Virus record (IMG/VR): IMGVR_UViG_3300043446_004834
Span: 1-22,502 of that record
Length of the DNA: 22,502 nucleotides
Source: a virus
Reading direction: 5' to 3' (one strand)
Positions within the stretch are counted from its first letter, which is position 1. Each line of letters begins with the position of its first letter. Position numbers and translations under genes: made by a program. This document shows, one piece after another, positions 5,560 to 22,169 of this stretch. The notes under the pieces are model-generated. The model searched no databases. It was given only the letters and a program-made list of their open reading frames with translations, and was not told the DNA's origin.

Positions 5560-6471
5560 TCAGTTAGTTAATCCAGCAACTGTTCCGTTATTGATAAGTG
5601 TAACATATGCCGATAATCCATTTACATAATAACCAGCAGATCCACCTGCAGCACCAGAAGCACCTGCAGAACCAGCACCAACATTACCATTCGATCCAGT
5701 ACTACCAGTACTTCCGCTATTACCAGATGTTCCCCAGTCACCACCAGTTCCTCCAGTTCCTCCAGTACCACCAGTTCCTGCATTAGTTCCACCAGCAGAT
5801 CCTGCAGTACCTGTAGATCCTGTTGTAGGTGATTGATTATACCCTCTACCTACACCACCACCACCTCCGGCACCACCTGCACCTCCTGTTGTTGGAGTTG
5901 GTGGACCAGTGGTGGTAGATGTACATGCCCTTCTGAATCGTGCAGCAACAGCACCACAAACTGGAACAGAAGAAACACAAGCATTAGGAACAGCTGTTCC
6001 AGGTGGACACTGGACTGGGCAAGCTGAAGGTTGACAACCTGTAAAAAATGGTGTGGATGTAACGGGACCAGGAATTTCTCCAGGTCCACCTTGACCACCA
6101 GTTCCTCCAGTTCCTCCTCCTCCACCACCAGCATAAATGGTTCCAGTTGGTTTATTTTCGATTGTGCAAGTTGACTGTGCTAAAATAGCATCACCACCAG
6201 ATCCACCTGCCGCTCCACCTGCTCCTTGAATAGATCCGTAATTATCGATAAAAAGTGAACCACCAAGTCCTGTTGGAATTTTTATTGCAGCATTTGCGGT
6301 TGTTTCACTTCCAACAGTGACTGCAGATGGAATAATGACTCTTTTGCGATATGCAGAATTGAATAAGGTATCACCAATTAAAGTTCTTAAGTCCAGATTC
6401 GTTTGATTAGTTGTTACTTCGAAAAATAAATCACTCGTTTGGATAAAAGATTGGATTATACCTATTGTCAT
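5560..6471 (-). CDS. Glycine-rich tail-fibre adhesin-like protein, copy 1, 303 aa
   Basis: This is probably a receptor-binding tip or fibre-capping protein. Residues 1-80 are a conserved beta domain (QTSDLFFEVT, RKRVIIPSAVTVG, IDNYGSIQGAGG). Residues 81-130 and 190-280 are glycine-rich with repeated GGTGGTGGTGG, the kind of sequence that forms polyglycine-II layers in T-even gp38-type adhesins. Residues about 131-190 are a Pro/Cys-rich segment with six cysteines (146, 151, 155, 165, 172, 183). The C-terminus (GGSAGYYVNGL...INNGTVAG) is beta-like. It overlaps the 312-aa fibre gene as ATGA. A 302-aa paralogue lies at 16460-17368. Family placement beyond adhesin-like is inference. Confidence 0.75.
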   Translation of the reverse strand: MTIGIIQSFIQTSDLFFEVTTNQTNLDLRTLIGDTLFNSAYRKRVIIPSAVTVGSETTANAAIKIPTGLGGSLFIDNYGSIQGAGGAAGGSGGDAILAQSTCTIENKPTGTIYAGGGGGGTGGTGGQGGPGEIPGPVTSTPFFTGCQPSACPVQCPPGTAVPNACVSSVPVCGAVAARFRRACTSTTTGPPTPTTGGAGGAGGGGGVGRGYNQSPTTGSTGTAGSAGGTNAGTGGTGGTGGTGGDWGTSGNSGSTGSTGSNGNVGAGSAGASGAAGGSAGYYVNGLSAYVTLINNGTVAGLTN

Positions 6472-6506
6472 GAAAGTCCTGCTCCTGAGATTACAAATTC
6501 ATTAGA
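6468..6506. repeat. 39-bp exact direct repeat, left copy
   Basis: Bases 6468-6506 are identical to 17365-17403. They cover the ATGA junction between fibre and adhesin genes and the last codons of the fibre. Flanking sequence remains similar but diverged, so this is the best-conserved piece of a larger duplication. Confidence 0.85.
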
Positions 6507-7406
6507 AGCAACACACAGAACACTTGCCAATCCTCTTTGACTTAGAGTTCTATTTCCTGTTGTAGAAACTCCAGCTAATCTTAAGGTTACTCCTGCACCT
6601 TGAGTAATTGTTTGAGATGATGCTGAGTTATTGTATATGGTAACTGAGTTTCCTGCTGAGAAGACTCCAGAAGGAACTGTTACACCTCCGACAGTAATGT
6701 TGATAAGTTCTCCAACATCTCCTACTACTAATGTATAAGATGTAGTAACTCCAACATTTGCTAAAGATCTGAGATTTCCTAAAGAATCCCGAATAGTTCC
6801 AACAACGTGAAGTGCTGACTGTGGATTTGTGGTTCCTAGTCCAACAGAACCACTTATATAAGCACCACCAGTAACTTGAAGTGGTTGTGATGCAGTTCCT
6901 GTTGTGGTTGTTGCATTAACTAAAACAGTAGATCCTACAACAGCATTATTTGCCACATAAAGATTTCTCCATCTTTGAGTTGAAGAACCTAAATCATAAG
7001 TATTTGTAACATCTGGTTTTAAATCTGATATAAATTCTCCACTAACTGTAATACTATCATCGGTATTATCACCAAGGAAAACATTTCCAGCAAGTGTTGC
7101 AATTCCAGAAACGTTTAAAGTTTCGAGAGAAGTATTTCCTTTAACTGTGAGAGCACTTGTTGGATTTGTGGTTCCGATTCCAACGTCACCACTCAATCTA
7201 TAAATGTCATCTCCAGTACCAGAAGTCCACCTGGAAGCAACAAATTGAGAACCATTTTGTCTAAAAGTTCCAGTTAAATTTATATCACCAATAACATCCA
7301 AATCATACTGTGGATTTGTGGTTCCTATGCCAACCCTATCGTTACTGACATTTACAAAAATATTATCATCTGATACTAAGTTTGCCGTCTGTCTTGTTTT
7401 TCCCAT
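6468..7406 (-). CDS. Tail-fibre protein with VGIGTTNP repeats, 312 aa
   Basis: The motif [RDS]VG[IL]GTTNP occurs at about residues 25, 74 and 192, each followed by a short beta segment ending in a VxG element, typical of trimeric beta-helical phage fibres. A block TYDLGSSTQRWRNLYVANNA resembles one in the 905-aa fibre. Residues about 210-312 (SYTLVVGDVGELINITVGG, VTVPSGVFSAGNSVTIYNNS, VLCVASNEFVISGAGLS) closely match the end of the 228-aa fibre at 17365-18051. It is four bases downstream of the S74-containing fibre gene and is coupled to the glycine-rich adhesin, so the three probably form one fibre operon. Confidence 0.8.
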   Translation of the reverse strand: MGKTRQTANLVSDDNIFVNVSNDRVGIGTTNPQYDLDVIGDINLTGTFRQNGSQFVASRWTSGTGDDIYRLSGDVGIGTTNPTSALTVKGNTSLETLNVSGIATLAGNVFLGDNTDDSITVSGEFISDLKPDVTNTYDLGSSTQRWRNLYVANNAVVGSTVLVNATTTTGTASQPLQVTGGAYISGSVGLGTTNPQSALHVVGTIRDSLGNLRSLANVGVTTSYTLVVGDVGELINITVGGVTVPSGVFSAGNSVTIYNNSASSQTITQGAGVTLRLAGVSTTGNRTLSQRGLASVLCVASNEFVISGAGLS

Positions 7407-10063: not shown

Positions 10064-12781
10064 TCAGAAGGTTCCAGCATCAATTGTAATATTCTCAAGT
10101 TTTCTGGTGGATCCTGAGCAAGAAATAACTTGTGATTGTCCAGCACAATCATTAACCCAGAGAGCACCGATTTCAAGAGCAGCATATGCACTTGCTGTCA
10201 GAACATTTGATGATTCCGAAACATCAGATGCAACAGCAATTCTTGATGCACTGTCATCCCAGTAAACTGCTGCTTTCTTAGCACTGCTGGTATAATAGTT
10301 GAAGAGAATACCTAAGTCAATATTGAGATCTGATGATGGTGCAACACCATTTACAAAACCAAGTTCAACTAAAGAATCTTCAACAGTTAATGATGTGGTA
10401 TTGACTTGAGTTGTGGATCCATTAATATAAAGATTTCCACCAACGGTTAAGTCACTATTAGTTGCAACAGCACCAGTGCTATTAGTAATGGTAATAGCAG
10501 TCGTTCCATCATTTGCTTGTACGTTAGTTGCTTTGACAGTTGGAGTGGTTAATGAAGTTGTAACACTTACTGCATCAGGGAGTCCAACAGTTACTGTTTG
10601 ACCAGAAACTGAAGTATTGACCTCATTTGCAGTTCCAGAAATTGTCAGAGTTTGTGCAGTGCTGACTGTGCTTGGACCACCAGAATCTGCAGAAAGTCCA
10701 AGAGTTACATCAACATTTCCTACCTGAGTAGTAACATAATCAATAACTGCGGATGAAGTTGGAACAGAGGAAGTTGAAGATCCTGTGGATACTGAACCTG
10801 AGAACTGAGTAACTCCTACACCAGTACCAATTGTGGTAATACCAACAATCTTAACATTATTCTCAAGAGTAACATCACGTCCTGCAAGGGTAATTGCATT
10901 ATTAGAGTCAGTAGCACTTCTAATATTGTTTACAATTGCCTTACCTTGGAAGGAAACATCTCCTGATGTATCATAAATGTATAAACCACGAGTTCCATTT
11001 GCAGAACCAAGATATCCACTACCTGTTTGTAAGTCACCAGATGACTTAACATTTCCTGTGGAAGCATTAAGTGACAGAGCTGTGCCTGTTCTTAAGGTCT
11101 CTCCATTTTCTCCACCTGATGTATCTACAAATGTTGCATAATAAGTTGCATTTGTGGTTGTACCAGTTGTATCAACGGTAGTTGCCCTGGTTGCAGTTGT
11201 TGCAGTACCAGTAATTGTCTGCTCAAAAGTTGCAGTTCCTTTTACAGTAACAATATCTCCTGAAGTATCACCTAAAGTTGTATTTCCGAGTATATTAAGA
11301 GTTTGAGCAGTTGCGATACCAGAAAGATTTAAGTGTCTTGCAGTGATATCTTCACCAACAACCGAAGCACCACCAGTAACTTGAATACCACCAACATAAA
11401 GTTGATTATTAATATAAACATTACTGGTTGTAAAGGTAGTTACACCAGCAACTGTAATAACATCACTACCCGAATCACCTAAGAATACATTTCCTGCAAG
11501 GGTAGTAATTCCACTTACTAAGGTATTACCAGTAAACTCTGCGTGCTGTGTGGTGAGTTTGTTTGCACCTGGATTGTAGTAAATGCCATCATCAGTGTAA
11601 ACGTTTTCAGCAGTTGCAGATCCATTATGGGAATCAACAAAAGTTACATAATAAGTTCCTGCTGTATCATTTGCGGTAACAGTCTTAACTTGATCTGCTG
11701 ATGATGCAGTTGTTGCATTACCACTTAATGCACCATAGAAAGTTGTTGCTGAAACTGATGTATCTGCTACGGTAACACCCGTACCAACAGCAAGTCTAAC
11801 ACCACTTGCCATGGTTGAGGTTCCGATAGAAACCCCATAGTTGAACATCCATGCATCAGTTGAAAGTCCAGTAAATGTACCGGACTTAACCCACATTAAT
11901 TGCTTATATGTTGGTGGAAGTGTATTAATTCCAGCAACACTTATGTCAAATAATGGAGTTCCTTCTGCAGAAGCAATAGCAATACCACCATGATTTGCGG
12001 TATCATCAGTTTCAGAAACACCGTCAATGTATGCAAATACAGCATCCTTATTTGAGATTAAGAGATCATTAAATCCAGTTGCAGTAATTATGCCAGCAAC
12101 GTTTACATTTCCAGAGAACCAAGCATTTCTCCACTTTTGGGATGAAGTACCTAAATCATAGGAGTTAGTTGTACTTGGATTTAAACTGGATACAAACTCA
12201 CCACCAACAGTAATATCATCACTCGTATTATCACCAAGAGTTATATTTCCTGCAAGTGTTGTAACTCCAGTTGCATTTAAATTTGTAACACTGATATTAT
12301 TATCAAGATTAATTGTAATTGTATTATCTGTTACTGCAGTGTTTACATTTGTTCCACCGACAAATGTAATTGTAGAACCAGTACTTACAGTATCTGAAGT
12401 TCCACTATCTGCTGCAATATTAAATTCACTTACAACTGCTTCCCACGATAAGTCACCAGATGAATTTGTTTTCAGAAAATAATTATTTGTTGGTGTTGCA
12501 GGAAAAGTATATGTTACGTTTGACGCAAGAGTATCTGGCGCCTTTAAAGAAATATAATTAGAACCGTTTGAAGTTCCCTCAACAAGATTTACTGCACTTC
12601 CTGTTGAAGCACCTTCCCTAGTCCAGTAACGATGTGAACCAAAGAACTTATTGTTATTTGTGGTACTATCAATACCAACATAAAGTTCATAAGTATCTGT
12701 TGTAAGTGCTGGTTCACCTGCCTGCAGACCAGGAAGATTTGCAAATGCACCTCTCTTAAACTGAATTACAGGAGAAGCCAT
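10064..12781 (-). CDS. Long tail-fibre protein, 905 aa
   Basis: Residues 1-40 (VIQFKRGAFANLPGLQAGEP, ALTTDTYELYVGID) form the Mtd-like/fibre-attachment N-terminus. The body is a series of beta-helical modules in which TTLAGN-x-x-LGD-x-x-SD-x-ITV-x-G recurs (for example about residues 172-193 and 455-475), together with YDLGTSSQKWRNAWFSGNVN, shared with the 312-aa fibre. Ser, Thr, Gly and Val dominate and long charged stretches are absent, as expected for a virion fibre. The C-terminus (NDCAGQSQVISCSG...TIDAGTF) ends in the same DAGTF as the neighbouring 105-aa protein. It has its own late-type box and a terminator. This is probably the longest fibre subunit in the window. Confidence 0.82.
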   Translation of the reverse strand: MASPVIQFKRGAFANLPGLQAGEPALTTDTYELYVGIDSTTNNNKFFGSHRYWTREGASTGSAVNLVEGTSNGSNYISLKAPDTLASNVTYTFPATPTNNYFLKTNSSGDLSWEAVVSEFNIAADSGTSDTVSTGSTITFVGGTNVNTAVTDNTITINLDNNISVTNLNATGVTTLAGNITLGDNTSDDITVGGEFVSSLNPSTTNSYDLGTSSQKWRNAWFSGNVNVAGIITATGFNDLLISNKDAVFAYIDGVSETDDTANHGGIAIASAEGTPLFDISVAGINTLPPTYKQLMWVKSGTFTGLSTDAWMFNYGVSIGTSTMASGVRLAVGTGVTVADTSVSATTFYGALSGNATTASSADQVKTVTANDTAGTYYVTFVDSHNGSATAENVYTDDGIYYNPGANKLTTQHAEFTGNTLVSGITTLAGNVFLGDSGSDVITVAGVTTFTTSNVYINNQLYVGGIQVTGGASVVGEDITARHLNLSGIATAQTLNILGNTTLGDTSGDIVTVKGTATFEQTITGTATTATRATTVDTTGTTTNATYYATFVDTSGGENGETLRTGTALSLNASTGNVKSSGDLQTGSGYLGSANGTRGLYIYDTSGDVSFQGKAIVNNIRSATDSNNAITLAGRDVTLENNVKIVGITTIGTGVGVTQFSGSVSTGSSTSSVPTSSAVIDYVTTQVGNVDVTLGLSADSGGPSTVSTAQTLTISGTANEVNTSVSGQTVTVGLPDAVSVTTSLTTPTVKATNVQANDGTTAITITNSTGAVATNSDLTVGGNLYINGSTTQVNTTSLTVEDSLVELGFVNGVAPSSDLNIDLGILFNYYTSSAKKAAVYWDDSASRIAVASDVSESSNVLTASAYAALEIGALWVNDCAGQSQVISCSGSTRKLENITIDAGTF

Positions 12782-13913: not shown

Positions 13914-14768
13914 TTAGAATGTAATGGATCCATCGCCGTTCCAACGATACACGTAGTATCCTGGTTGTGCTGGAGTTGGGGTGTTACCTGACACAGAAGC
14001 AGCAGCGGGGTAAGCTGTCGGCCAACGAACTATGCAAACGCCAGATCCTCCAGTTCCCCCCGTTGTGGTAGTAGGACCATTTTGCCCTCCACCACCACCG
14101 TTGCCTGTGTTGGCCGTAGCGGCGGTGGGACCTGCGTTCCCAGCACCTCCTGCGGCGTAAGTTACCGGAGACCCTGTTATGCTGTTGGATCGACCCGCGC
14201 CATCTCCCCCAGCTCCCCCGCCTGGAGTAGCCGATGGCGTTGGGCCGTTTGTACACGCAGTGGTTCCCGGAGAGGCAAAGGTTGTAATCTGAGAATGTAC
14301 GTTAAATACATCTGCTCTTAAATTAAGAGAAGAAGTTCCTACAATACCTCCAATAATACTCGAAAAACCTGAAGGTGAAGATGAGCTACCTCCTCCACCT
14401 CCGGAACCTCCAGTTGTTCCGTATGTAGTGGCTGTAGTGGGGTACAGTCCAGCGCCACCACCACCACCACCTGCGGGTATATTTCCAAAAGTACTTTCAG
14501 AGCCTTTTGATCCGTTATAGTACTGCGGGTTCCCAGCGCCGCCGGCTCCAATTACTATACTAAAAGTCTCTCCAGTGTTTACAAGAATACTTTTACCTTC
14601 CACCATGGCTCCCGCTCCACCGCCTGATGCTATATAACCAGGAGATCCCACAGCACCACCCCCACCGCCGCCACCTCCACCTATCAAGAGGACTTCAATA
14701 ACTTTCATCGTATTAGGTACTGGATCTCCTATTCCTCCACAACCAAAAAACTGAGATGCTGCACTCAT
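13914..14768 (-). CDS. Glycine-rich virion protein, GC-rich core, 284 aa
   Basis: Residues 22-60 (MKVIEVLLIGGGGGGGGGAV) have the VLLxGGGGGGG pattern of a glycine-rich domain widespread in phage tail proteins. Further glycine runs continue (GGGGGGAGLYPTT, GGSGGGGGSSSSPSG, NGGGGGQNGPT), and the C-terminus GVCIVRWP...GYYVYRWNGDGSITF is beta-like. It is unrelated in detail to the two 303/302-aa adhesins. Base use is unlike its neighbours: bases 14161-14220 contain 39 G/C of 60, with codons rich in G/C at the third position, suggesting recent acquisition. GGAGGT lies 10 bases before the ATG. Probably a receptor-contacting or surface-display protein. Confidence 0.72.
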   Translation of the reverse strand: MSAASQFFGCGGIGDPVPNTMKVIEVLLIGGGGGGGGGAVGSPGYIASGGGAGAMVEGKSILVNTGETFSIVIGAGGAGNPQYYNGSKGSESTFGNIPAGGGGGGAGLYPTTATTYGTTGGSGGGGGSSSSPSGFSSIIGGIVGTSSLNLRADVFNVHSQITTFASPGTTACTNGPTPSATPGGGAGGDGAGRSNSITGSPVTYAAGGAGNAGPTAATANTGNGGGGGQNGPTTTTGGTGGSGVCIVRWPTAYPAAASVSGNTPTPAQPGYYVYRWNGDGSITF

Positions 14769-15979: not shown

Positions 15980-16460
15980 CATTAGCAGCTCCTTCAATAA
16001 TTGCATCATATTCTGCTTGTGTTATAGCAGGCATATCTTTGGGGAATTGTGCCTTTACACTTTCAATATCATTATCAATTTGTTGAAGAACTGTATCGTC
16101 ACCTTGACGTGCCCAGTAAAGAGCATCAAGTTGATCTCCTAATGGTGGATAATTCTGAGAACGAAGATCTCTATATGTTAAAAGACGATTTTTAGATTCT
16201 TCATTCTGTTGTTCTTCTATTTGTTTTCTTTCAAGTTCTTTCTGAGCAAAACTCTTTGTAGTTCCAGAGTCTCCAACATTAAATGGAACATCCTCAACTG
16301 AATTAAATTGATTTGCTGATGGTTGAAAGTTTCCAATTGTATTTTCGATATCTTGTTTTGACATCGCAGAATGAATTGGGACAATTGCCCAAGAACCATC
16401 TGCATAATCAACCGTAATAGATGATGTTGAAATTTCCCTAACTGTGTATTGTACTGACAT
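15966..16460 (-). CDS. Putative tail-fibre-associated/assembly protein, 164 aa
   Basis: Residues 1-40 are a beta segment (VREISTSSITVDYADGSWAI). Residues 65-95 form a charged helix (KELERKQIEEQQNEESKNRL). Residues 96-145 hold YRDLRSQNYPPLGDQLDALY, then WARQGD...IESVKAQFPKDM, a YPPxxDQLDxLYxAR pattern recurrent in phage proteins next to fibre genes (XkdW/assembly-type). It is joined to the glycine-rich adhesin upstream by TAATG and overlaps the Zn-ribbon gene downstream, so it belongs to the right-hand fibre unit. Chaperone or connector role is inferred. Confidence 0.7.
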   Translation of the reverse strand: MSVQYTVREISTSSITVDYADGSWAIVPIHSAMSKQDIENTIGNFQPSANQFNSVEDVPFNVGDSGTTKSFAQKELERKQIEEQQNEESKNRLLTYRDLRSQNYPPLGDQLDALYWARQGDDTVLQQIDNDIESVKAQFPKDMPAITQAEYDAIIEGAANDVLG

Positions 16461-17368
16461 TAGATTATACTCCCAGCAATTGTACCTGTATTTGTAAATG
16501 TAACAAGTGGTGATCCATTTATATAGTAACCTGCGGATCCACCTAAAACACCACCACTACCAGCAGAACCATTAGTAACGTTTCCATTAGTTCCAACATT
16601 ACCAGTATTTCCTGTGGCACCAGGAGTCCCCCAATCACCACCAGTTCCTCCTGTGCCTCCTGTGCCTCCAGTTCCTGCATTAGTTCCACCAGCAGATCCT
16701 GCAGAACCTGTAGATCCTGTTGTTGGTGCTTGGTTATAACCTCTACCTACACCACCTGCTCCACCAGCACCACCTGCTCCTCCTGTTGTTGGAATTGGAG
16801 ATTGAGGAAATGTTTGAGAACACACCATATTGCCGGACAAAGGAGGAGAGCATCCTGCAGCAGTATTGCAAGATACAAAAGTTCCATATCCAGGAACACA
16901 TCTTGTCGGTGGGTTAAAACCAGCAGGATTACAAGCACAAGGATTCGATGCGGTTAATGTGTAAGGACTTTGTGGAATTACTCCATTTCCACCTTGACCA
17001 CCAGTACCACCAGTTCCTCCTCCACCACCACCAGCATAAATGGTTCCTGTTGGTTTATTATTAATTCTACAAGCAGATTGTGCCAAAATAGCATCACCAC
17101 CAGATCCACCTGCTGCTCCACCTGCTCCTTGAATGGAACCATAATTATCAATTATAAGTTCTCCACCAAGTCCTGTCGGAATTTGTATCGCAGCAGAAGC
17201 AGTAGATGGACTTCCAATAGTAACAGCAGATGGAATAATAACTCTCTTACGATAATTTGCATTATATAAAGTATTACCAATCAAAGTTCTTATATCAAGA
17301 TTAGTCTGATTAGATTTTATCTCAAAAAATAAGTCACTTGTTTGTATAATAGTTTGTATAATACTCAT
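16460..17368 (-). CDS. Glycine-rich tail-fibre adhesin-like protein, copy 2, 302 aa
   Basis: This is a paralogue of the 303-aa protein at 5560-6471, collinear over almost the whole length. The N-terminal domain (QTSDLFFEIKSNQTNLDIRT), the glycine-rich blocks (YAGGGGGGTGGTGGQGG; GGTNAGTGGTGGTGGTGG) and the end (GGSAGYYINGS...NTGTIAG) are conserved. Residues about 130-190 are not alignable with copy 1, yet again carry six cysteines (144, 146, 157, 167, 173, 183). Copy 1 and copy 2 share one further cysteine (C100 here, C102 there). It overlaps the fibre gene upstream (ATGA). Probably a receptor-binding tip whose central segment sets specificity, as inferred from the pattern of change. Confidence 0.75.
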   Translation of the reverse strand: MSIIQTIIQTSDLFFEIKSNQTNLDIRTLIGNTLYNANYRKRVIIPSAVTIGSPSTASAAIQIPTGLGGELIIDNYGSIQGAGGAAGGSGGDAILAQSACRINNKPTGTIYAGGGGGGTGGTGGQGGNGVIPQSPYTLTASNPCACNPAGFNPPTRCVPGYGTFVSCNTAAGCSPPLSGNMVCSQTFPQSPIPTTGGAGGAGGAGGVGRGYNQAPTTGSTGSAGSAGGTNAGTGGTGGTGGTGGDWGTPGATGNTGNVGTNGNVTNGSAGSGGVLGGSAGYYINGSPLVTFTNTGTIAGSII

Positions 17369-17403
17369 GAAAGTCCTGCTCCTGAGATTACAAATTCATT
17401 AGA
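17365..17403. repeat. 39-bp exact direct repeat, right copy
   Basis: Identical to 6468-6506, in the same orientation 10,897 bases away, at the same fibre/adhesin junction. Confidence 0.85.
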
Positions 17404-18051
17404 TCCAACACATAAGACATTCGCCAATCCTCTTTGATCTAATGTTCTATTACCAGTTGTCGAAACTCCAGCTAATCTTAAGGTTACTCCTGAACCTTGA
17501 GTGATTGTTTGTCCAATTCCACTATTATTATAAATTGTAATTGAATTTCCTGCTGAGAAGACTCCAGAAGGAACAGTTATACCTCCTACAGTAATATTAA
17601 TTAATTCACCAACATCATTTGATGTTAAAGTATATGATGTTGTAATAGCAACATTAGGAATAGTTCTTAAGTTTCCACCAGAATCATTTAGTTGGGTGGC
17701 AGTTAAAATGCCAGTAGATGGATTGAATAAAAGTTTGGTTGTTGATACTTTTGATGCGGTAATGGTTCCTGATGTGGTTTGGGTAAGAACAGGATAAAAG
17801 GTTGCATTTGTTGTAGTATCATTAGCAACTGTAGATCCTGCTCCAGTAAGACCTGATCCATTACCAACAAAACTTGTAGCAGTAACAACTCCCGTTACAT
17901 TAATACCGGTAGAATTAATCGTAACTGCAGAACCCACAATTGATGAGGTAGAAGTTATAATACCAGTGGCATTTACTCCACCATAAACTGACAAATCACC
18001 AACTGTAGATATTCCTACACCACCAACTAATTGTGCCTTTGTCTGTGACAT
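17365..18051 (-). CDS. Tail-fibre protein, 228 aa, shares C-terminus with the 312-aa fibre
   Basis: Residues 1-65 are short beta modules (VGGVGISTVGDLSVYGGVNA, GVVTATSFVGNGSGL). Residues about 75-95 (NATFYPVLTQTTSGTI) resemble the hinge region of other fibres. Residues 122-228 (DSGGNLRTIPNVAITTSYTL, INITVGGITVPSGVFSAGNS, VLCVGSNEFVISGAGLS) align with the end of the 312-aa protein. The N-terminal part differs, so the two genes share a swapped C-terminal module. It is the first gene after a late-type box and is coupled to the glycine-rich adhesin. Confidence 0.8.
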   Translation of the reverse strand: MSQTKAQLVGGVGISTVGDLSVYGGVNATGIITSTSSIVGSAVTINSTGINVTGVVTATSFVGNGSGLTGAGSTVANDTTTNATFYPVLTQTTSGTITASKVSTTKLLFNPSTGILTATQLNDSGGNLRTIPNVAITTSYTLTSNDVGELINITVGGITVPSGVFSAGNSITIYNNSGIGQTITQGSGVTLRLAGVSTTGNRTLDQRGLANVLCVGSNEFVISGAGLS

Positions 18052-18117: not shown

Positions 18118-18837
18118 TCAACTTGCCATATCATTAGCACAGTGTGCTCTCACACCATCAGCAAGGACATAATGAAAGAAAACTTGATGGTAGTATAAAC
18201 CTTCTTTTTCTACTTTCTTACCATACCAGGTTCTTCGATATTCGGTGGGCATCGGATCTCTCCAGTGCGGTCTTTCGCATCCTTTATAAATCATACCATC
18301 ACCAGGATTAAGAATCACAGAACGATTCTCACCTTTTTGAATAATGTTTGCTTTCGTCTTAGGGTCATCATAAGTATCTGGAGTTTTAATCCAGATAGGC
18401 CAAGGAGTACTGATATTAGAACCAATATGAACCGTCACTGAGATTTCACAAGCAGGTCTGTCTGCATGATTTTTCAGTGGTTGTCCTGGATTATAAAAAC
18501 GATCGTAGTAGTAGGTATTATAAAGTTTCTTACCGATTGCTTTCTCAAGTTTCATACGAATTTGAGAATGAGCAAACTTATAAGGAGGCCAATAGTATCT
18601 TGATGTTGAACCTTCTACCTGATTTTCTACGGGAATGTGGTTAAACTTATCAATCTTTCCAAAGTAATTATATTGACCTTTAACTTCTGGTGGTTCCGAA
18701 TAAAGATCTTTTGGATCCCACAGATTTCTTAGAACAAGATATCCATTCTTATCAAATTCTTCATTATTTGTTGGTGATGTTCCAGAATTGACTCTCTCTT
18801 GAAAATCAATCTCTTCTTGTATCATTTGTTCTGCCAT
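18118..18837 (-). CDS. Putative 2OG-Fe(II) oxygenase, H-x-D-R-P type, 239 aa
   Basis: The Fe(II)-binding H-x-D is H124-A-D126 in NHADRPACEISVTVHI. The distal ligand is H191 in PGDGMIYKGCERPHWRDP. The 2-oxoglutarate anchor is not certain; R193, R201 and R202 are candidates. The jelly-roll strands VTVHIGS, IWIKTP, SVILNPGD and HQVFFHYVLADG are in the expected order. The same pattern is found in the 192-aa protein at 20540-21118. In T4-like cyanophages such proteins are frequent and their substrates unknown. It is the third gene of an operon with two other oxygenase-family genes, one base after the 170-aa gene, and is followed by a terminator. Confidence 0.82.
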   Translation of the reverse strand: MAEQMIQEEIDFQERVNSGTSPTNNEEFDKNGYLVLRNLWDPKDLYSEPPEVKGQYNYFGKIDKFNHIPVENQVEGSTSRYYWPPYKFAHSQIRMKLEKAIGKKLYNTYYYDRFYNPGQPLKNHADRPACEISVTVHIGSNISTPWPIWIKTPDTYDDPKTKANIIQKGENRSVILNPGDGMIYKGCERPHWRDPMPTEYRRTWYGKKVEKEGLYYHQVFFHYVLADGVRAHCANDMAS

Positions 18838-18838
18838 T

Positions 18839-19351
18839 TTACCTCATTTTCCACAAATCTGCTGCTATTGTATATCTACTTTCTAAGGACTTTGTTTTTG
18901 GTGGTTTATGTAAAAGGTATGAAGGAAACAAATACCATGTATATGATTCGGGATTTATTTTAAAATTTTCAAATTCTGTTCCTTCATTTTTTGGATTTCT
19001 TAGATAATATATTCCAGAAATTCTGTCTATTTCATCATAATTAGCATGACAATGCCACGATTTCTTTTCATTTCTCCAAAAAGTGTTAACTATATTATCT
19101 TTATAACACCACATATTCATCTTATATTCGTGAATTTTTTTTATTTCAAGATAATCGCAGCAAGAATTTAAGAATGTTTCTTTTAATGTTTTTAATTCTT
19201 CATATAAAAATAAATTTTCATAAGTCTGAAATTTTGGTTTATTTTTATCCCAATTTCCCGATTTAAACAAATAATTTACAAGTTTTATAATATCATCTTG
19301 TTGTTTTTCTGTTATTATATTGGAATAATTATATTCACGAATAAAATACAT
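18839..19351 (-). CDS. Putative 2OG-Fe(II) oxygenase-like protein, WHxHxN type, AT-rich, 170 aa
   Basis: The start is the ATG at 19351, preceded by GGAGGTGAA, the ribosome-binding site inside the end of the upstream gene; the open frame to 19384 is not used. SWHCHANYDEIDRISGIYYL (residues 99-117), FPSYLLHKPP (H148) and ESRYTIAADL (R159) match the layout of the putative 2OG-Fe(II) oxygenase family in which HxHxN replaces a plain HxD. The acidic ligand is not obvious (D106 is possible), so activity is uncertain. Base composition stands out: two 60-base lines (18961 and 19141) contain 13 G/C each, about 22%. It may be acquired from an AT-richer phage. Confidence 0.68.
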   Translation of the reverse strand: MYFIREYNYSNIITEKQQDDIIKLVNYLFKSGNWDKNKPKFQTYENLFLYEELKTLKETFLNSCCDYLEIKKIHEYKMNMWCYKDNIVNTFWRNEKKSWHCHANYDEIDRISGIYYLRNPKNEGTEFENFKINPESYTWYLFPSYLLHKPPKTKSLESRYTIAADLWKMR

Positions 19352-19352
19352 T

Positions 19353-19988
19353 TCACCTCCAACGGGGTCCAACAGTCCAACCAACCAAACTCTTACGAAT
19401 TCCTTTAGTTACTCTCTGGACTCGATGCATTGCCCGAGAATCAAAGAGAATAATAGTTCCTCTTTGTCTTGGTGCAATATAAGATTTTCCTGCTTCATCA
19501 AGTAACTGAAGATTACCACCTTCATAAGTGTCAGGATCAGATAAAAGAAGACTAAAGGATAGTTTTCTTACTCTCTCACAATTTTCATTCAAAAAATCCT
19601 GTGCAATTTCTCCACCATTTCCACGGTTACCTCCAGAAACTGGTTTGTAATGCGTAGAAAGTCCAGCATCATTATGCCAACCATAATACTCACCTTCTCC
19701 ATACACAGTATATTGAAGTGACTCACCATCAATATTGCTCAAATCGTATAGGAAGTTCTCACGATTTGCACGTTGAACATAATGCCAAACAAATCCTGCT
19801 ACCCAGTGATTAGTTGAAACCCATGCATTTCTTGCATTTCTTTTTTCTTTATCTACTGTTCCGTAATCTCCATGACCAACTTGAGAATCTTGCAGTTGTG
19901 AATCAAAGTTTTCTGCAAGGTCTTCTTCAATTATATTTATAATTTTATTTGGAAGATTAGTATAATACCAAATACTTTGAAAAGCCAT
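19353..19988 (-). CDS. Putative 2OG-Fe(II) oxygenase, PKHD/prolyl-4-hydroxylase type, 211 aa
   Basis: H105-N-D107 (YYGWHNDAG), distal H188 (SRAMHRVQRV) and the 2-oxoglutarate arginine R198 (KGIRKSLVGWTVGP) complete the Fe(II)/2OG site. Strands RKLSFSLLLSDPDTYEGGNL and GTIILFDSRA are the classic PKHD/P4H core. An aromatic stretch with AWVSTNHWVAGFVWHYVQRA precedes it. The reaction would be hydroxylation of a protein or small-molecule substrate, which is unknown. It is the first gene after a strong sigma70-like promoter, with AGGAG five bases before the ATG. Its paralogue is the 227-aa protein at 21115-21798. A ribosome-binding site in its last codons serves the next gene. Confidence 0.85.
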   Translation of the reverse strand: MAFQSIWYYTNLPNKIINIIEEDLAENFDSQLQDSQVGHGDYGTVDKEKRNARNAWVSTNHWVAGFVWHYVQRANRENFLYDLSNIDGESLQYTVYGEGEYYGWHNDAGLSTHYKPVSGGNRGNGGEIAQDFLNENCERVRKLSFSLLLSDPDTYEGGNLQLLDEAGKSYIAPRQRGTIILFDSRAMHRVQRVTKGIRKSLVGWTVGPRWR

Positions 19989-20007
19989 GTGCTCCTATAA
20001 TGTATTC

Positions 20008-20026
20008 ACAGATATTATATATCTGT
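20008..20026. promoter_or_regulatory. Operator-like palindrome over a -10 box
   Basis: Arms ACAGATAT and ATATCTGT (8 bases each, perfect) flank a 3-base centre. The -10 hexamer of the oxygenase promoter sits on the centre of symmetry, a placement typical of repressor operators. No regulator gene is visible here. Confidence 0.5.
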
Positions 20027-20042
20027 TAGATTAAGATGTCAA
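20014..20042 (-). promoter_or_regulatory. Consensus sigma70 promoter of the oxygenase operon
   Basis: TTGACA (20037-20042) and TATAAT (20014-20019) are both perfect and 17 bases apart. The expected transcript starts near 20007 and runs into the ATG at 19988. No other promoter in this window is as close to the host consensus. Confidence 0.8.
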
Positions 20043-20043
20043 T

Positions 20044-20066
20044 AAAAAAGAGGGTATAAACCCTCT
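20044..20066 (-). terminator. Terminator after the assembly-chaperone gene
   Basis: Perfect arms AGAGGG/CCCTCT with loop TTTATA are followed by T's, just after the 150-aa gene stop. With the promoter immediately downstream it insulates the oxygenase operon. The stem-loop nearly repeats that at 10016-10041. Confidence 0.85.
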
Positions 20067-20072
20067 AAAACT

Positions 20073-20525
20073 TTATGCTGGTGGAACAGGCCACTCTGGG
20101 TGATTCGGATCAAGAACAAGAGATTTTGGATCTGTAACATTATCAGTAAGATCTCTAAGTTCTTGACGATATGCCTGCCAAGCAACTTTTTGTTCTTCTG
20201 TTAGAGTATTATCTGGAAGTTGAGTCCAATCAGATTGAGTTAACCTGAAGTCTCTTAAAATTCTAAGTTCTGCTAAGTAATCTCTGTTTAATTCTGCATC
20301 AATAAACTCTTGCTTTTTGGCATCCCAAAGATCAGATGCCTGCTGATAAATCCCCAATTCAGTAATATCAATATTTGGATCTGGTGTTTTAAGTTCTACA
20401 TGACCATGATCTTCATACCACTGAACTGCATGAACTTCTTCAGGAATCCAAGAAAGGTCAATATCATGGAGACACTCTCCATCTTTACATACTACACCAT
20501 CAATAGGAACAACAGTAAGTCTCAT
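20073..20525 (-). CDS. Putative phage tail-assembly chaperone, 150 aa
   Basis: The C-terminal region, residues about 85-150, reads ELRILRDFRLTQSDWTQLPD, then LTEEQKVAWQAYRQELRDLT and a closing NHPEWPVPP. This is the Rx2Lx2SDW...LPD...W..YR..LRDL...P.WP.PP pattern of the phage tail-assembly chaperone domain that accompanies fibre genes. The N-terminal 70 residues are a beta domain and linker (LTVVPIDGVVCKDGECLHDI, HVELKTPDPNIDI). A late-type box overlaps the end of the upstream gene and a terminator follows, so this gene can be transcribed on its own. It probably helps fold or assemble fibre proteins. Confidence 0.8.
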   Translation of the reverse strand: MRLTVVPIDGVVCKDGECLHDIDLSWIPEEVHAVQWYEDHGHVELKTPDPNIDITELGIYQQASDLWDAKKQEFIDAELNRDYLAELRILRDFRLTQSDWTQLPDNTLTEEQKVAWQAYRQELRDLTDNVTDPKSLVLDPNHPEWPVPPA

Positions 20526-20539
20526 TTTTATATTAAACT

Positions 20540-21118
20540 TTAATTTTTTCTATTTATTGGAGCAGGCATTCCAAGAAATTCTCTTTCATCGTAAATATTA
20601 TCCTTATAAGGACCATCACCATCAACATAATGTAGAAAGGACTGTAAATACCACTTGTTTTCGAAAGGAGGTCTCCAGTGCCACAAATCACATCCACGAT
20701 AAAGACACAAATCTCCAGGATTCAATAGAATTTTAACTGCATCACTTCTATCTTCATTTTTACTGAAAAATATTGGATTTATATCTCCAGCAAATCCTAA
20801 AGAAAGAGTTGCTGATATTTCGCATGATGGTCGATCTCTGTGAATTTTTAATTCATTATCCTTTACATAAACTCTTGTGTATGAATAAGTTGGTAACAAA
20901 TTGATTCCTGTTTTTTCAGACAGTTCTCCACAAGAACGATCTAAAATTGATTCCATCAAAGGATCCGAATAAAAAGAATAAGAACCAGGAGCTTGAGCAT
21001 CATTTCTATCACCAAACCCACATTTAACCCTAATGAAAAAATAGGTTTGTATAATGTCTAAAGTTTTTTTATCTAGAAAATCTCTTACAATTAAGTATTT
21101 GTTATCTTTAAATGTCAT
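20540..21118 (-). CDS. Putative 2OG-Fe(II) oxygenase, H-x-D-R-P type, 192 aa
   Basis: The ATG at 21118 is chosen; it forms an ATGA junction with the stop of the PKHD gene, and the longer frame would need a TTG. H93-R-D95 (KIHRDRPSCEISATLSL) and H147 (CDLWHWRPP) form the metal site, in the same H-x-D-R-P-x-C-E-I-S pattern as the 239-aa paralogue (H-A-D there). Strands KILLNPGDLCLYRG and LQSFLHYVDGDGP are also shared. The shorter N-terminus (MTFKDNKYLIVRDFL) and the tail MPAPINRKN are its own. The substrate is unknown. It is co-translated with the PKHD protein, so the two enzymes may act together. Confidence 0.82.
   Translation of the reverse strand: MTFKDNKYLIVRDFLDKKTLDIIQTYFFIRVKCGFGDRNDAQAPGSYSFYSDPLMESILDRSCGELSEKTGINLLPTYSYTRVYVKDNELKIHRDRPSCEISATLSLGFAGDINPIFFSKNEDRSDAVKILLNPGDLCLYRGCDLWHWRPPFENKWYLQSFLHYVDGDGPYKDNIYDEREFLGMPAPINRKN
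20551..20557 (-). promoter_or_regulatory. Late-type promoter box inside an oxygenase 3' end
   Basis: Minus-strand CCAATAAATAG occupies the last codons of the 192-aa gene, 26 bases before the assembly-chaperone ATG. It matches the box at 9800-9806 over 11 bases. Confidence 0.5.
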
Positions 21119-21798
21119 TTGAGTTGAGGTCCTATAATCCAAGCAACAAGTGAATATCTAACTCCAGATTTTACTTTGGTAACTCTATGAAGAGTTCTTC
21201 CTTCAAACACACAAACACTTCCCTTTCTTCTTTGAATGTCTACTCTTTTATTATGATAATCAAAAATTTGAAGTGTTCCACCTTCATATTCTGAAGGATC
21301 ATTAAGTTGAATTGTTACTGATAATTTCCTAAAGTAATCTGGATGTGATTTATCTGGAAAAAAATCTGTATGCCAATTATAAAATCCTCCAGGAGTATAT
21401 CTTGTAATTTGAATGGTTTGAATATCTGTTATGTCATACTGCCAATTTTCATCGTTGGCAAGTTTTACATAATTCCAAACAATTCCATAAGCCCAGTGAG
21501 TTTTTGGTAGAAAATACACATCAGATTTTCTAATCTTCTCAAGCACATAATCATTTGGTTCAGAAAGAGTCCCAGTAAGTGCGGTAGAAAAACTATTGCT
21601 ATTATCTTCGATTTCCTTAATCAATAAATTGCAAATACTTTCATCAAGTGGATGATTGAAAACCGTTGATGATGCTACTGGAATTGATTGAGTATTCTGG
21701 ATATTTGGATAAAAAAATGGATTTTGAGTTTGATTTATTTGAAGTTCTCCTTTTTGATCCTCTATTATCAACTCACCAATATCATGAAGATTAGACAT
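21115..21798 (-). CDS. Putative 2OG-Fe(II) oxygenase, PKHD/prolyl-4-hydroxylase type, 227 aa
   Basis: H143-T-D145 (FYNWHTDFFPD), H204 (GRTLHRVTKV) and R214 (SGVRYSLVAWIIGP) form a complete Fe(II)/2-oxoglutarate site. FRKLSVTIQLNDPSEYEGGT and GSVCVFEG are core strands. A TKTHWAYGIVWNYV-like stretch (KTHWAYGIVWNYVKLANDEN) matches NHWVAGFVWHYVQRANRENF in the 211-aa paralogue. An extra N-terminal region of about 45 residues (ELQINQTQNPFFYPNIQNTQ) is Gln/Asn-rich and absent from that paralogue. The start overlaps the stop of the 123-aa gene (TAATG) and the stop overlaps the next oxygenase (ATGA), so three proteins are made from coupled frames. Confidence 0.85.
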   Translation of the reverse strand: MSNLHDIGELIIEDQKGELQINQTQNPFFYPNIQNTQSIPVASSTVFNHPLDESICNLLIKEIEDNSNSFSTALTGTLSEPNDYVLEKIRKSDVYFLPKTHWAYGIVWNYVKLANDENWQYDITDIQTIQITRYTPGGFYNWHTDFFPDKSHPDYFRKLSVTIQLNDPSEYEGGTLQIFDYHNKRVDIQRRKGSVCVFEGRTLHRVTKVKSGVRYSLVAWIIGPQLK

Positions 21799-22169
21799 TA
21801 ACTTTCAGTTTCTTCTTTATCTTTTCCTTCTTCTAGAATATTAGATGGTGGGTTAGTATTTGTTGGAAGTTGTGTGAAAATAGGATTCACAGATACACCC
21901 TGAAGCATTGCTTGGATATAGAGTTCTTTATTTTCTTCATTTGCTTTTACAACTTCATTCCTAAATGATTCAACTGCAGCACCTGCCTGCCTAGACTGTT
22001 GTGCTGCTTCGATAATCAAAGTAGGAATCCATTTCACTGCACATTCCCAATCATCAACTTGTTCTCCTGTATTTGGATTCATACCACGAACAAGAGTCAT
22101 CCAATTACATTCCAGTCCAATACAATCTTTTTGTAAAAGAGGACAAAACTTACCAGATTCAATCTTCAT
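21798..22169 (-). CDS. Conserved Cys-containing phage protein, 123 aa
   Basis: Residues 9-43 carry four cysteines (FCPLLQKDCIGLECNWM; DWECAVKW) with spacing C-x6-C-x4-C-x21-C, consistent with a small metal site. Residues 50-90 are a helix (TLIIEAAQQSRQAGAAVESF, RNEVVKANEENKELY), and the C-terminus is Pro/Asn-rich and acidic. Proteins with the CPL..DC...C.W...RG..P.TGE..D.W.CAV pattern recur in phages; their role is unknown. AAGGAG lies 11 bases before the ATG. It may head the first oxygenase operon. Confidence 0.75.
   Translation of the reverse strand: MKIESGKFCPLLQKDCIGLECNWMTLVRGMNPNTGEQVDDWECAVKWIPTLIIEAAQQSRQAGAAVESFRNEVVKANEENKELYIQAMLQGVSVNPIFTQLPTNTNPPSNILEEGKDKEETES

Follow-up and report, generated by a model that had tools for sequence, protein, structure and literature searches.

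Two versions of a PKHD/HxDRP dioxygenase module beside glycine-rich fiber genes in phage DNA, and the identity of a phage family annotated as ferrochelatase

We analyzed a 22,502-nucleotide stretch of viral DNA (positions 1 to 22,502 of IMG/VR virus record IMGVR_UViG_3300043446_004834), the whole of which we refer to as the window. Five genes encoding proteins with the Fe(II)-dioxygenase fold lie on its minus strand at positions 18118-21798, in two groups that we read as distantly related forms, here versions A and B, of a single phage dioxygenase module. The module would consist of a PKHD-type 2-oxoglutarate (2OG)-Fe(II) oxygenase translationally coupled to a second protein, termed HxDRP for its sequence motif, with version A adding a PF13759 oxygenase between the two. 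HxDRP carries a ferrochelatase label, but its predicted structure gives good support to a different identity: it would be the module's second Fe(II) dioxygenase, with a double-stranded beta-helix like that of PKHD enzymes and prolyl hydroxylases. As a unit, PKHD with HxDRP is well supported, old, conserved and widespread among phages that infect ocean bacteria, and we hold this identity together with the pairing with high confidence. More tentatively, with a probability of roughly 0.45, we propose that the unit hydroxylates the phage's own glycine-rich fiber proteins.

The sequence-only reading of this DNA had named five oxygenase-family genes in this interval and described the metal ligands of the four HxD proteins among them as intact. 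All five open reading frames (ORFs) are present on the minus strand, Pfam and PHROG matches and the fold models agree with the assignment, and the triads of both PKHD and both HxDRP proteins are complete. The five genes, in order of transcription, are as follows.

21115..21798, minus strand: PKHD-B, a PKHD/prolyl-hydroxylase-type 2OG-Fe(II) oxygenase (PF13640, phrog_61)
20540..21118, minus strand: HxDRP-B, a dioxygenase-fold protein (phrog_2954, labeled ferrochelatase); its ORF reaches a TTG at 21142
19353..19988, minus strand: PKHD-A, a PKHD-type 2OG-Fe(II) oxygenase (PF13640, phrog_61)
18839..19351, minus strand: WHxHxN protein, an oxygenase with an HxH...H...R site (PF13759, phrog_81); its ORF reaches a TTG at 19384
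18118..18837, minus strand: HxDRP-A, a dioxygenase-fold protein (phrog_2954, labeled ferrochelatase)

The genes within each group are tightly coupled. The likeliest start of HxDRP-B is the ATG at 21118, which overlaps the PKHD-B stop codon as ATGA, and its relative in two other loci, L208 and L209, begins at the same codon. For the WHxHxN gene, the most likely start judging from the nucleotide sequence is the ATG at 19351, two bases past the stop codon of PKHD-A, with GGAGGTGA as the ribosome site.

Both HxDRP proteins are members of phrog_2954 (E = 9e-58 for HxDRP-A and 5e-47 for HxDRP-B), which PHROGs names ferrochelatase, and neither matches any Pfam family. The metal motifs are intact in both copies (H124xD and H191 in HxDRP-A, H101xD and H155 in HxDRP-B). 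In HxDRP-B numbering, H101, D103, R104, C107, H155, W156 and R157 are invariant in a 91-row alignment, and HxDR/K and H(W/Y)R are kept in 202 of 204 HxDRP members. AlphaFold models of HxDRP-B and HxDRP-A, with predicted local distance difference test scores of 93.9 and 92.9, both adopt a double-stranded beta-helix fold, with best Z scores to solved oxygenases of 16.5 and 15.0, respectively. The best VIA-align match of the HxDRP-B model is the PKHD hydroxylase 3dkq (Z 16.5, root-mean-square deviation 2.6, 158 residues), and its other top matches include PiuC with 2OG (Z 16.4), HIF prolyl hydroxylases and a Pseudomonas prolyl 4-hydroxylase (P4H; Z 16.0); the HxDRP-A model matches 6n1f (Z 15.0), P4H (Z 14.6) and SnoN. 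The likeness to PHD2 and the Pseudomonas P4H extends over 160-178 residues at Z scores of ~14-16, whereas sequence identity is only ~11-15% and proline is a presumptive target. Compared with the PKHD-type hydroxylases of PF13640 (Sbal_3634, 3dkq; PiuC), the fold and HxD...H site are alike and the two PKHD proteins of the window also carry the R-x-S 2OG anchor, whereas HxDRP has neither a sequence match to these enzymes nor the anchoring arginine. Run against the sequences of the PDB, the HxDRP profile returned no relative.

Among the HxDRP proteins tested, which came from the window and from reference phages, none matched a ferrochelatase family in Pfam or NCBIfam. The ferrochelatase family PF00762 was not found in nine complete reference phages in which HxDRP is mostly annotated 'ferrochelatase'; the same search was positive in 8 of 14 control genomes. 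Moreover, the HxDRP-A model matches an S-SM1 protein that bears the name ferrochelatase (TM 0.87 on the target). The absence of PF00762 from the nine phages, together with the oxygenase fold models of both copies, leads us to reject a ferrochelatase identity for HxDRP. These results bear on the published view, in which a ferrochelatase and a 2OG oxygenase serve as auxiliary metabolic genes that shift host heme, iron or 2OG metabolism. RefSeq and PHROGs annotation favor that view, as do the interpretations in PMC9599517 and PMC11561400 and the proposal in PMC3037559 that cyanophages modulate 2OG levels. Set against the missing ferrochelatase matches and the predicted folds, including the match to the S-SM1 protein, we regard it as highly improbable.

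The family is present in the literature under its old label. T4-GC 615 is entered as a hypothetical protein with a ferrochelatase domain (PMC3037559), every pelagiphage encoding a 'ferrochelatase' had an adjacent 2OG-Fe(II) oxygenase (PMC9599517), and phrog61 and phrog2954 co-occur and are treated as seasonally enriched auxiliary metabolic genes (PMC11561400). The 'ferrochelatase' of the latter two papers is the HxDRP protein family, and the function published for phrog_2954/phrog_3531/T4-GC 615 of cyano- and pelagiphages is very likely wrong. The sequence-only reading had described the linked, paired layout as unknown; this was mistaken, in that adjacency is already reported in PMC9599517 and co-occurrence in PMC11561400. 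A prolyl-hydroxylase-like structure has also been described for phage 2OG oxygenases in PMC12774648, where phrog_61 is one of the most common families to give human hits. Within literature coverage that leaves out subscription journals, we found no paper that corrects the ferrochelatase label or recognizes HxDRP as an oxygenase. The pair has been noticed before in part, although misnamed; what is new here is the identity now given to HxDRP and, as described below, the gene fusions, the parallel divergence of the partners and their association with genes for glycine-rich fiber proteins.

A further label drew our attention in the same loci, which we denote by L numbers. Proteins of phrog_274, which bear the name 'DNA endonuclease V', either match PF13640 or are encoded within oxygenase clusters (L085:8663-9175, L129:5499-6011 and L126:2285-2773). 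The L129 protein scores above the Pfam cutoff, the L126 protein matches weakly, and the L085 protein, from Mosig, has no Pfam match; here too, an oxygenase family seems to have been given a wrong label.

The other three enzymes of the window are recognizable from sequence to differing degrees. PKHD-A and PKHD-B match PF13640 at 50.2 and 68.5 bits (cutoff 27), and both retain the HxD...H triad and the R-x-S anchor (H105xD107, H188 and R198 in PKHD-A; H143xD145, H204 and R214 in PKHD-B). PKHD-B additionally finds 3dkq and PiuC by sequence in the PDB. The WHxHxN protein matches phrog_81 (E = 2e-11) and, marginally, PF13759 (27.7 bits, cutoff 27), a family often found between PKHD and HxDRP, whereas it falls below the cutoff of the related TIGR02466 model (18.3 versus 62.5 bits). 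Its PDB sequence search gave chance matches only, and it has no close relatives outside this population. Its motif is intact (H111xH113, H159 and R170), and the HxH(or D)...H...R pattern is common to the oxygenases that lie between PKHD and HxDRP: H111 and H159 are each conserved in 52/52 and R170 in 51/52, and the column of H113 holds histidine in 46/52 and aspartate in 5/52.

To follow the pair through IMG/VR we collected A-type HxDRP loci and loci matching a B-type alignment separately, a single alignment of all HxDRP types being too diverse for a scan of the collection. A PKHD gene lies upstream of HxDRP in all 73 A-type loci that have upstream sequence, directly in 67 and one gene away in 6. 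In the B-type set, it is adjacent, within ~1.3 kb or fused in 66 of 74. The two proteins are fused into a single ORF in seven cases, one of them in a bacterial metagenome-assembled genome (MAG), and phrog_3531, one half of which matches HxDRP and the other PKHD, represents the fused form. Distances among HxDRP proteins correlate with those among their PKHD partners (Spearman 0.59; best shuffle 0.08, with 0 of 2000 reaching the observed value), and the correlation holds within the A clade (0.55) and outside it (0.61). The PKHD-then-HxDRP order, which the sequence-only reading had picked out within the window, is found again in well over 100 other loci, and this puts the layout far outside what chance would give. 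From this co-inheritance and the occasional fusion, we infer that PKHD and HxDRP act jointly, probably as a complex or on one chain.

A gene standing between PKHD and HxDRP is itself a further oxygenase in 51 of 54 cases, as judged by a broad model: a hidden Markov model begun from the WHxHxN protein, which three rounds of iteration broadened to oxygenases of any kind and which therefore serves only as an 'any 2OG' label, spot-checked by Pfam and PHROG. All nine in-between genes checked in this way belong to oxygenase families, mostly PF13759. Since the in-between gene is nearly always an oxygenase, and those checked are mostly of the family of the WHxHxN gene, the latter is a common third member of the module.

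Other genes also occupy this position. A NUMOD3-containing gene of the homing-endonuclease type lies exactly between PKHD and HxDRP at L010:6857-7579, L011:9290-9997 and L055:9317-9997 (confirmed by Pfam in L010 and L055, and assigned in L011 by a common N terminus). A ParB-like domain gene (~139 aa) separates the third oxygenase from HxDRP at L100:1036-1449, with similar genes in L107, L110, L114, L115 and L132, all in pelagiphage-like loci. Divergent second HxDRP genes lacking HxDR occur near intact copies at L029:2901-3464 (minus strand) and L084:7548-8162 (plus strand), and are possibly dead or scaffold paralogs.

The A and B versions in the window are only distantly related, with identities of 32% between the PKHD proteins and 30% between the HxDRP proteins. 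In the HxDRP tree, the A copy groups with Bellamy, S-SM2 and S-MbCM6 with full support, the B copy groups with L208, L091, L092 and L093, and the two fall in separate deep clades. L208 and L209 hold both pairs (identity to the window of 78% for PKHD-A, 66% for PKHD-B and 72% for HxDRP-B), with A upstream of B and small fiber genes between them, an order that differs from that of the window. The separate deep clades and this different order indicate that the pairs did not arise by local duplication, and a recent tandem duplication is ruled out by the low identity and the separate clades. The pair had been called duplicated: two homologous pairs are indeed present, and it is their duplication in this lineage that does not stand. 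By the same token, the separate lineages expected of independent gain are seen, and the lack of preference for pairing that would go with it is not. Partner exchange in pair B, suggested by raw distances in which PKHD-B does not track HxDRP-B relative to L091-L093, was also considered and dropped, as a B clade is not rejected (approximately unbiased test, p 0.52). On the sequence evidence, the A and B pairs appear to move as cassettes among fiber genes.

Fiber genes had been noted beside the pairs, and they show a clear link to glycine-rich fiber-type proteins. Transcription on the minus strand runs from a small protein gene through PKHD-B, HxDRP-B, a chaperone gene that separates the B group from the A group, PKHD-A, the WHxHxN gene and HxDRP-A, and then into fiber-type and glycine-rich genes. 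The neighboring genes are these.

21798..22169, minus strand: small conserved cyanophage protein, upstream of PKHD-B here and in L208 and L209
20073..20525, minus strand: Phage_tail_APC, a tail/fiber assembly chaperone and non-oxygenase (PF16778, 65 bits; tail fiber assembly PHROGs)
17365..18051, minus strand: fiber-type protein encoded immediately downstream of HxDRP-A, with a C-terminal part of 119 residues that is 76% identical to gene 6468-7406
16460..17368, minus strand: glycine-rich fiber-type protein, candidate substrate (24% Gly, GXY-like runs; phrog_10745/11439)
13914..14768, minus strand: Gly_rich_2 protein, candidate substrate (PF21722, 72 bits)
5560..6471, minus strand: second glycine-rich fiber-type protein, 68% identical to 16460-17368

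The window thus encodes three glycine-rich proteins, two of which belong to a fiber and glycine-rich cassette that occurs twice, at 5560-7406 and 16460-18051 (68% and 76% identical in the portions common to both copies). We counted a protein as glycine-rich if Gly makes up 30% or more of some 60-residue stretch, and as a neighbor if it lies within 5 kb. By this measure, 76 of the 102 paired loci with enough sequence have such a neighbor; among the ORFs of four reference genomes the figure is 7-15%. The loci of an unpaired oxygenase family, taken from HTVC008M for comparison, gave 0/13, and HxDRP genes that are unpaired or of unclear pairing gave 6/20. Several of the neighbors are Gly_rich_2 proteins by Pfam. 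Of seven phages that have the paired module, five contain PF21722 (Bellamy, Mosig, HTVC008M, HTVC023P and the L076 contig of 174 kb); it was not found in the other two, S-SM2 and S-MbCM6, nor in any of three phages with a lone HxDRP (S-PM2, S-H9-2 and P-SSM7). Next to its pair, however, S-MbCM6 encodes a protein of 39% Gly, and in HTVC008M and Mosig the sole glycine-rich protein of the genome is encoded ~1 kb from HxDRP. True collagen-like GXY repeats (63 and 70 consecutive triplets), with almost no proline, are encoded near an A-type pair at L033:3340-6111 and 11126-12214.

Glycine-rich sandwiches form the receptor-binding tip in some T4-like phages, and prolyl hydroxylation stabilizes glycine/proline-rich folds such as collagen. 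Because the pair usually adjoins genes for glycine-rich tail-fiber proteins, these are the most likely target, and the module would hydroxylate their proline (or neighboring) residues during assembly, with 2OG as the putative co-substrate of HxDRP as well as of PKHD. Several observations weigh against this proposal. The glycine-rich proteins share no substrate motif, and their proline content is mostly just 2-9%. Many of the loci are related, so the counts are not independent, and part of the linkage could come from an insertion hotspot in the fiber region. HxDRP has no counterpart of the 2OG-anchoring arginine ~10-11 residues past the distal histidine, which is present in PKHD-A, PKHD-B and the WHxHxN protein; the invariant or near-invariant R90, R104 and R157 could be candidates for this role. 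Finally, S-PM2, S-H9-2 and P-SSM7 carry a lone HxDRP with neither a PKHD pair nor a fiber neighbor, so the pairing is strong and not universal, and cellular HxDRP relatives occur in other settings, such as a nonribosomal peptide synthetase (NRPS)/polyketide synthase (PKS) cluster of Brasilonema.

Several of these points would fit the main alternative, a real dioxygenase unit that acts on a host surface protein, glycan, translation factor or small metabolite and lies in the fiber region as an insertion hotspot. It would also account for the fold match, one of the best, to 4iw3, a complex of P4H with EF-Tu, the translation factor on which Pseudomonas P4H acts, and for the many other 2OG genes that HTVC008M and Mosig hold far from glycine-rich genes, alongside the HxDRP genes away from fibers in three cyanophages and the relative in the NRPS/PKS cluster. 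However, the oxygenases outside the module in the same genomes are not near glycine-rich genes, and in two genomes the only glycine-rich gene is the one beside the module. We consider a host target a distinct possibility, with the odds somewhat against it, and still prefer the fiber proteins as substrate.

Two cellular loci merit description in their own right. At L182:5971-6642 (Brasilonema sp. CT11), an HxDRP gene is flanked by NRPS and PKS genes, which suggests a role in natural-product hydroxylation. At L190:646-7247 (Acidobacteriia MAG), an HxDRP gene has genes for a TPR-PF13759 oxygenase and an asparagine synthase-like protein nearby, an arrangement reminiscent of a peptide natural-product cluster.

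The presence of two modules in one genome raises the further idea that each serves its own target and is tied to one fiber set, giving two modified fibers or adhesin switching. L208 and L209 hold both modules, each flanked by its own genes, and the fiber and glycine-rich cassette is present twice in the window, as this idea would have it. The cassette copies are nevertheless not distributed one per module, one of them lying ~11 kb away, and each of ten reference genomes searched has a single HxDRP, which makes the idea improbable. The pelagiphages HTVC008M and Mosig EXVC030M illustrate the difference: their 2OG clusters are runs of five or six consecutive oxygenase-type genes, PKHD and HxDRP among them, with one HxDRP per genome, whereas the window has two pairs.

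The seasonally enriched 'ferrochelatase' category of marine viruses (PMC11561400) is very likely an oxygenase, and claims of phage control over host heme would accordingly fall. For the widespread and unexplained 2OG oxygenases of cyano- and pelagiphages, our results offer the hypothesis that they modify the phage's own fibers, which could affect fiber stability or receptor binding. In its broadest form, which we think rather unlikely to hold in full, marine phages would possess a set of two or three enzymes dedicated to hydroxylating their own glycine-rich adhesins, built on a PKHD enzyme and a partner dioxygenase that the ferrochelatase name has concealed, and some would keep two such systems for two fiber sets.

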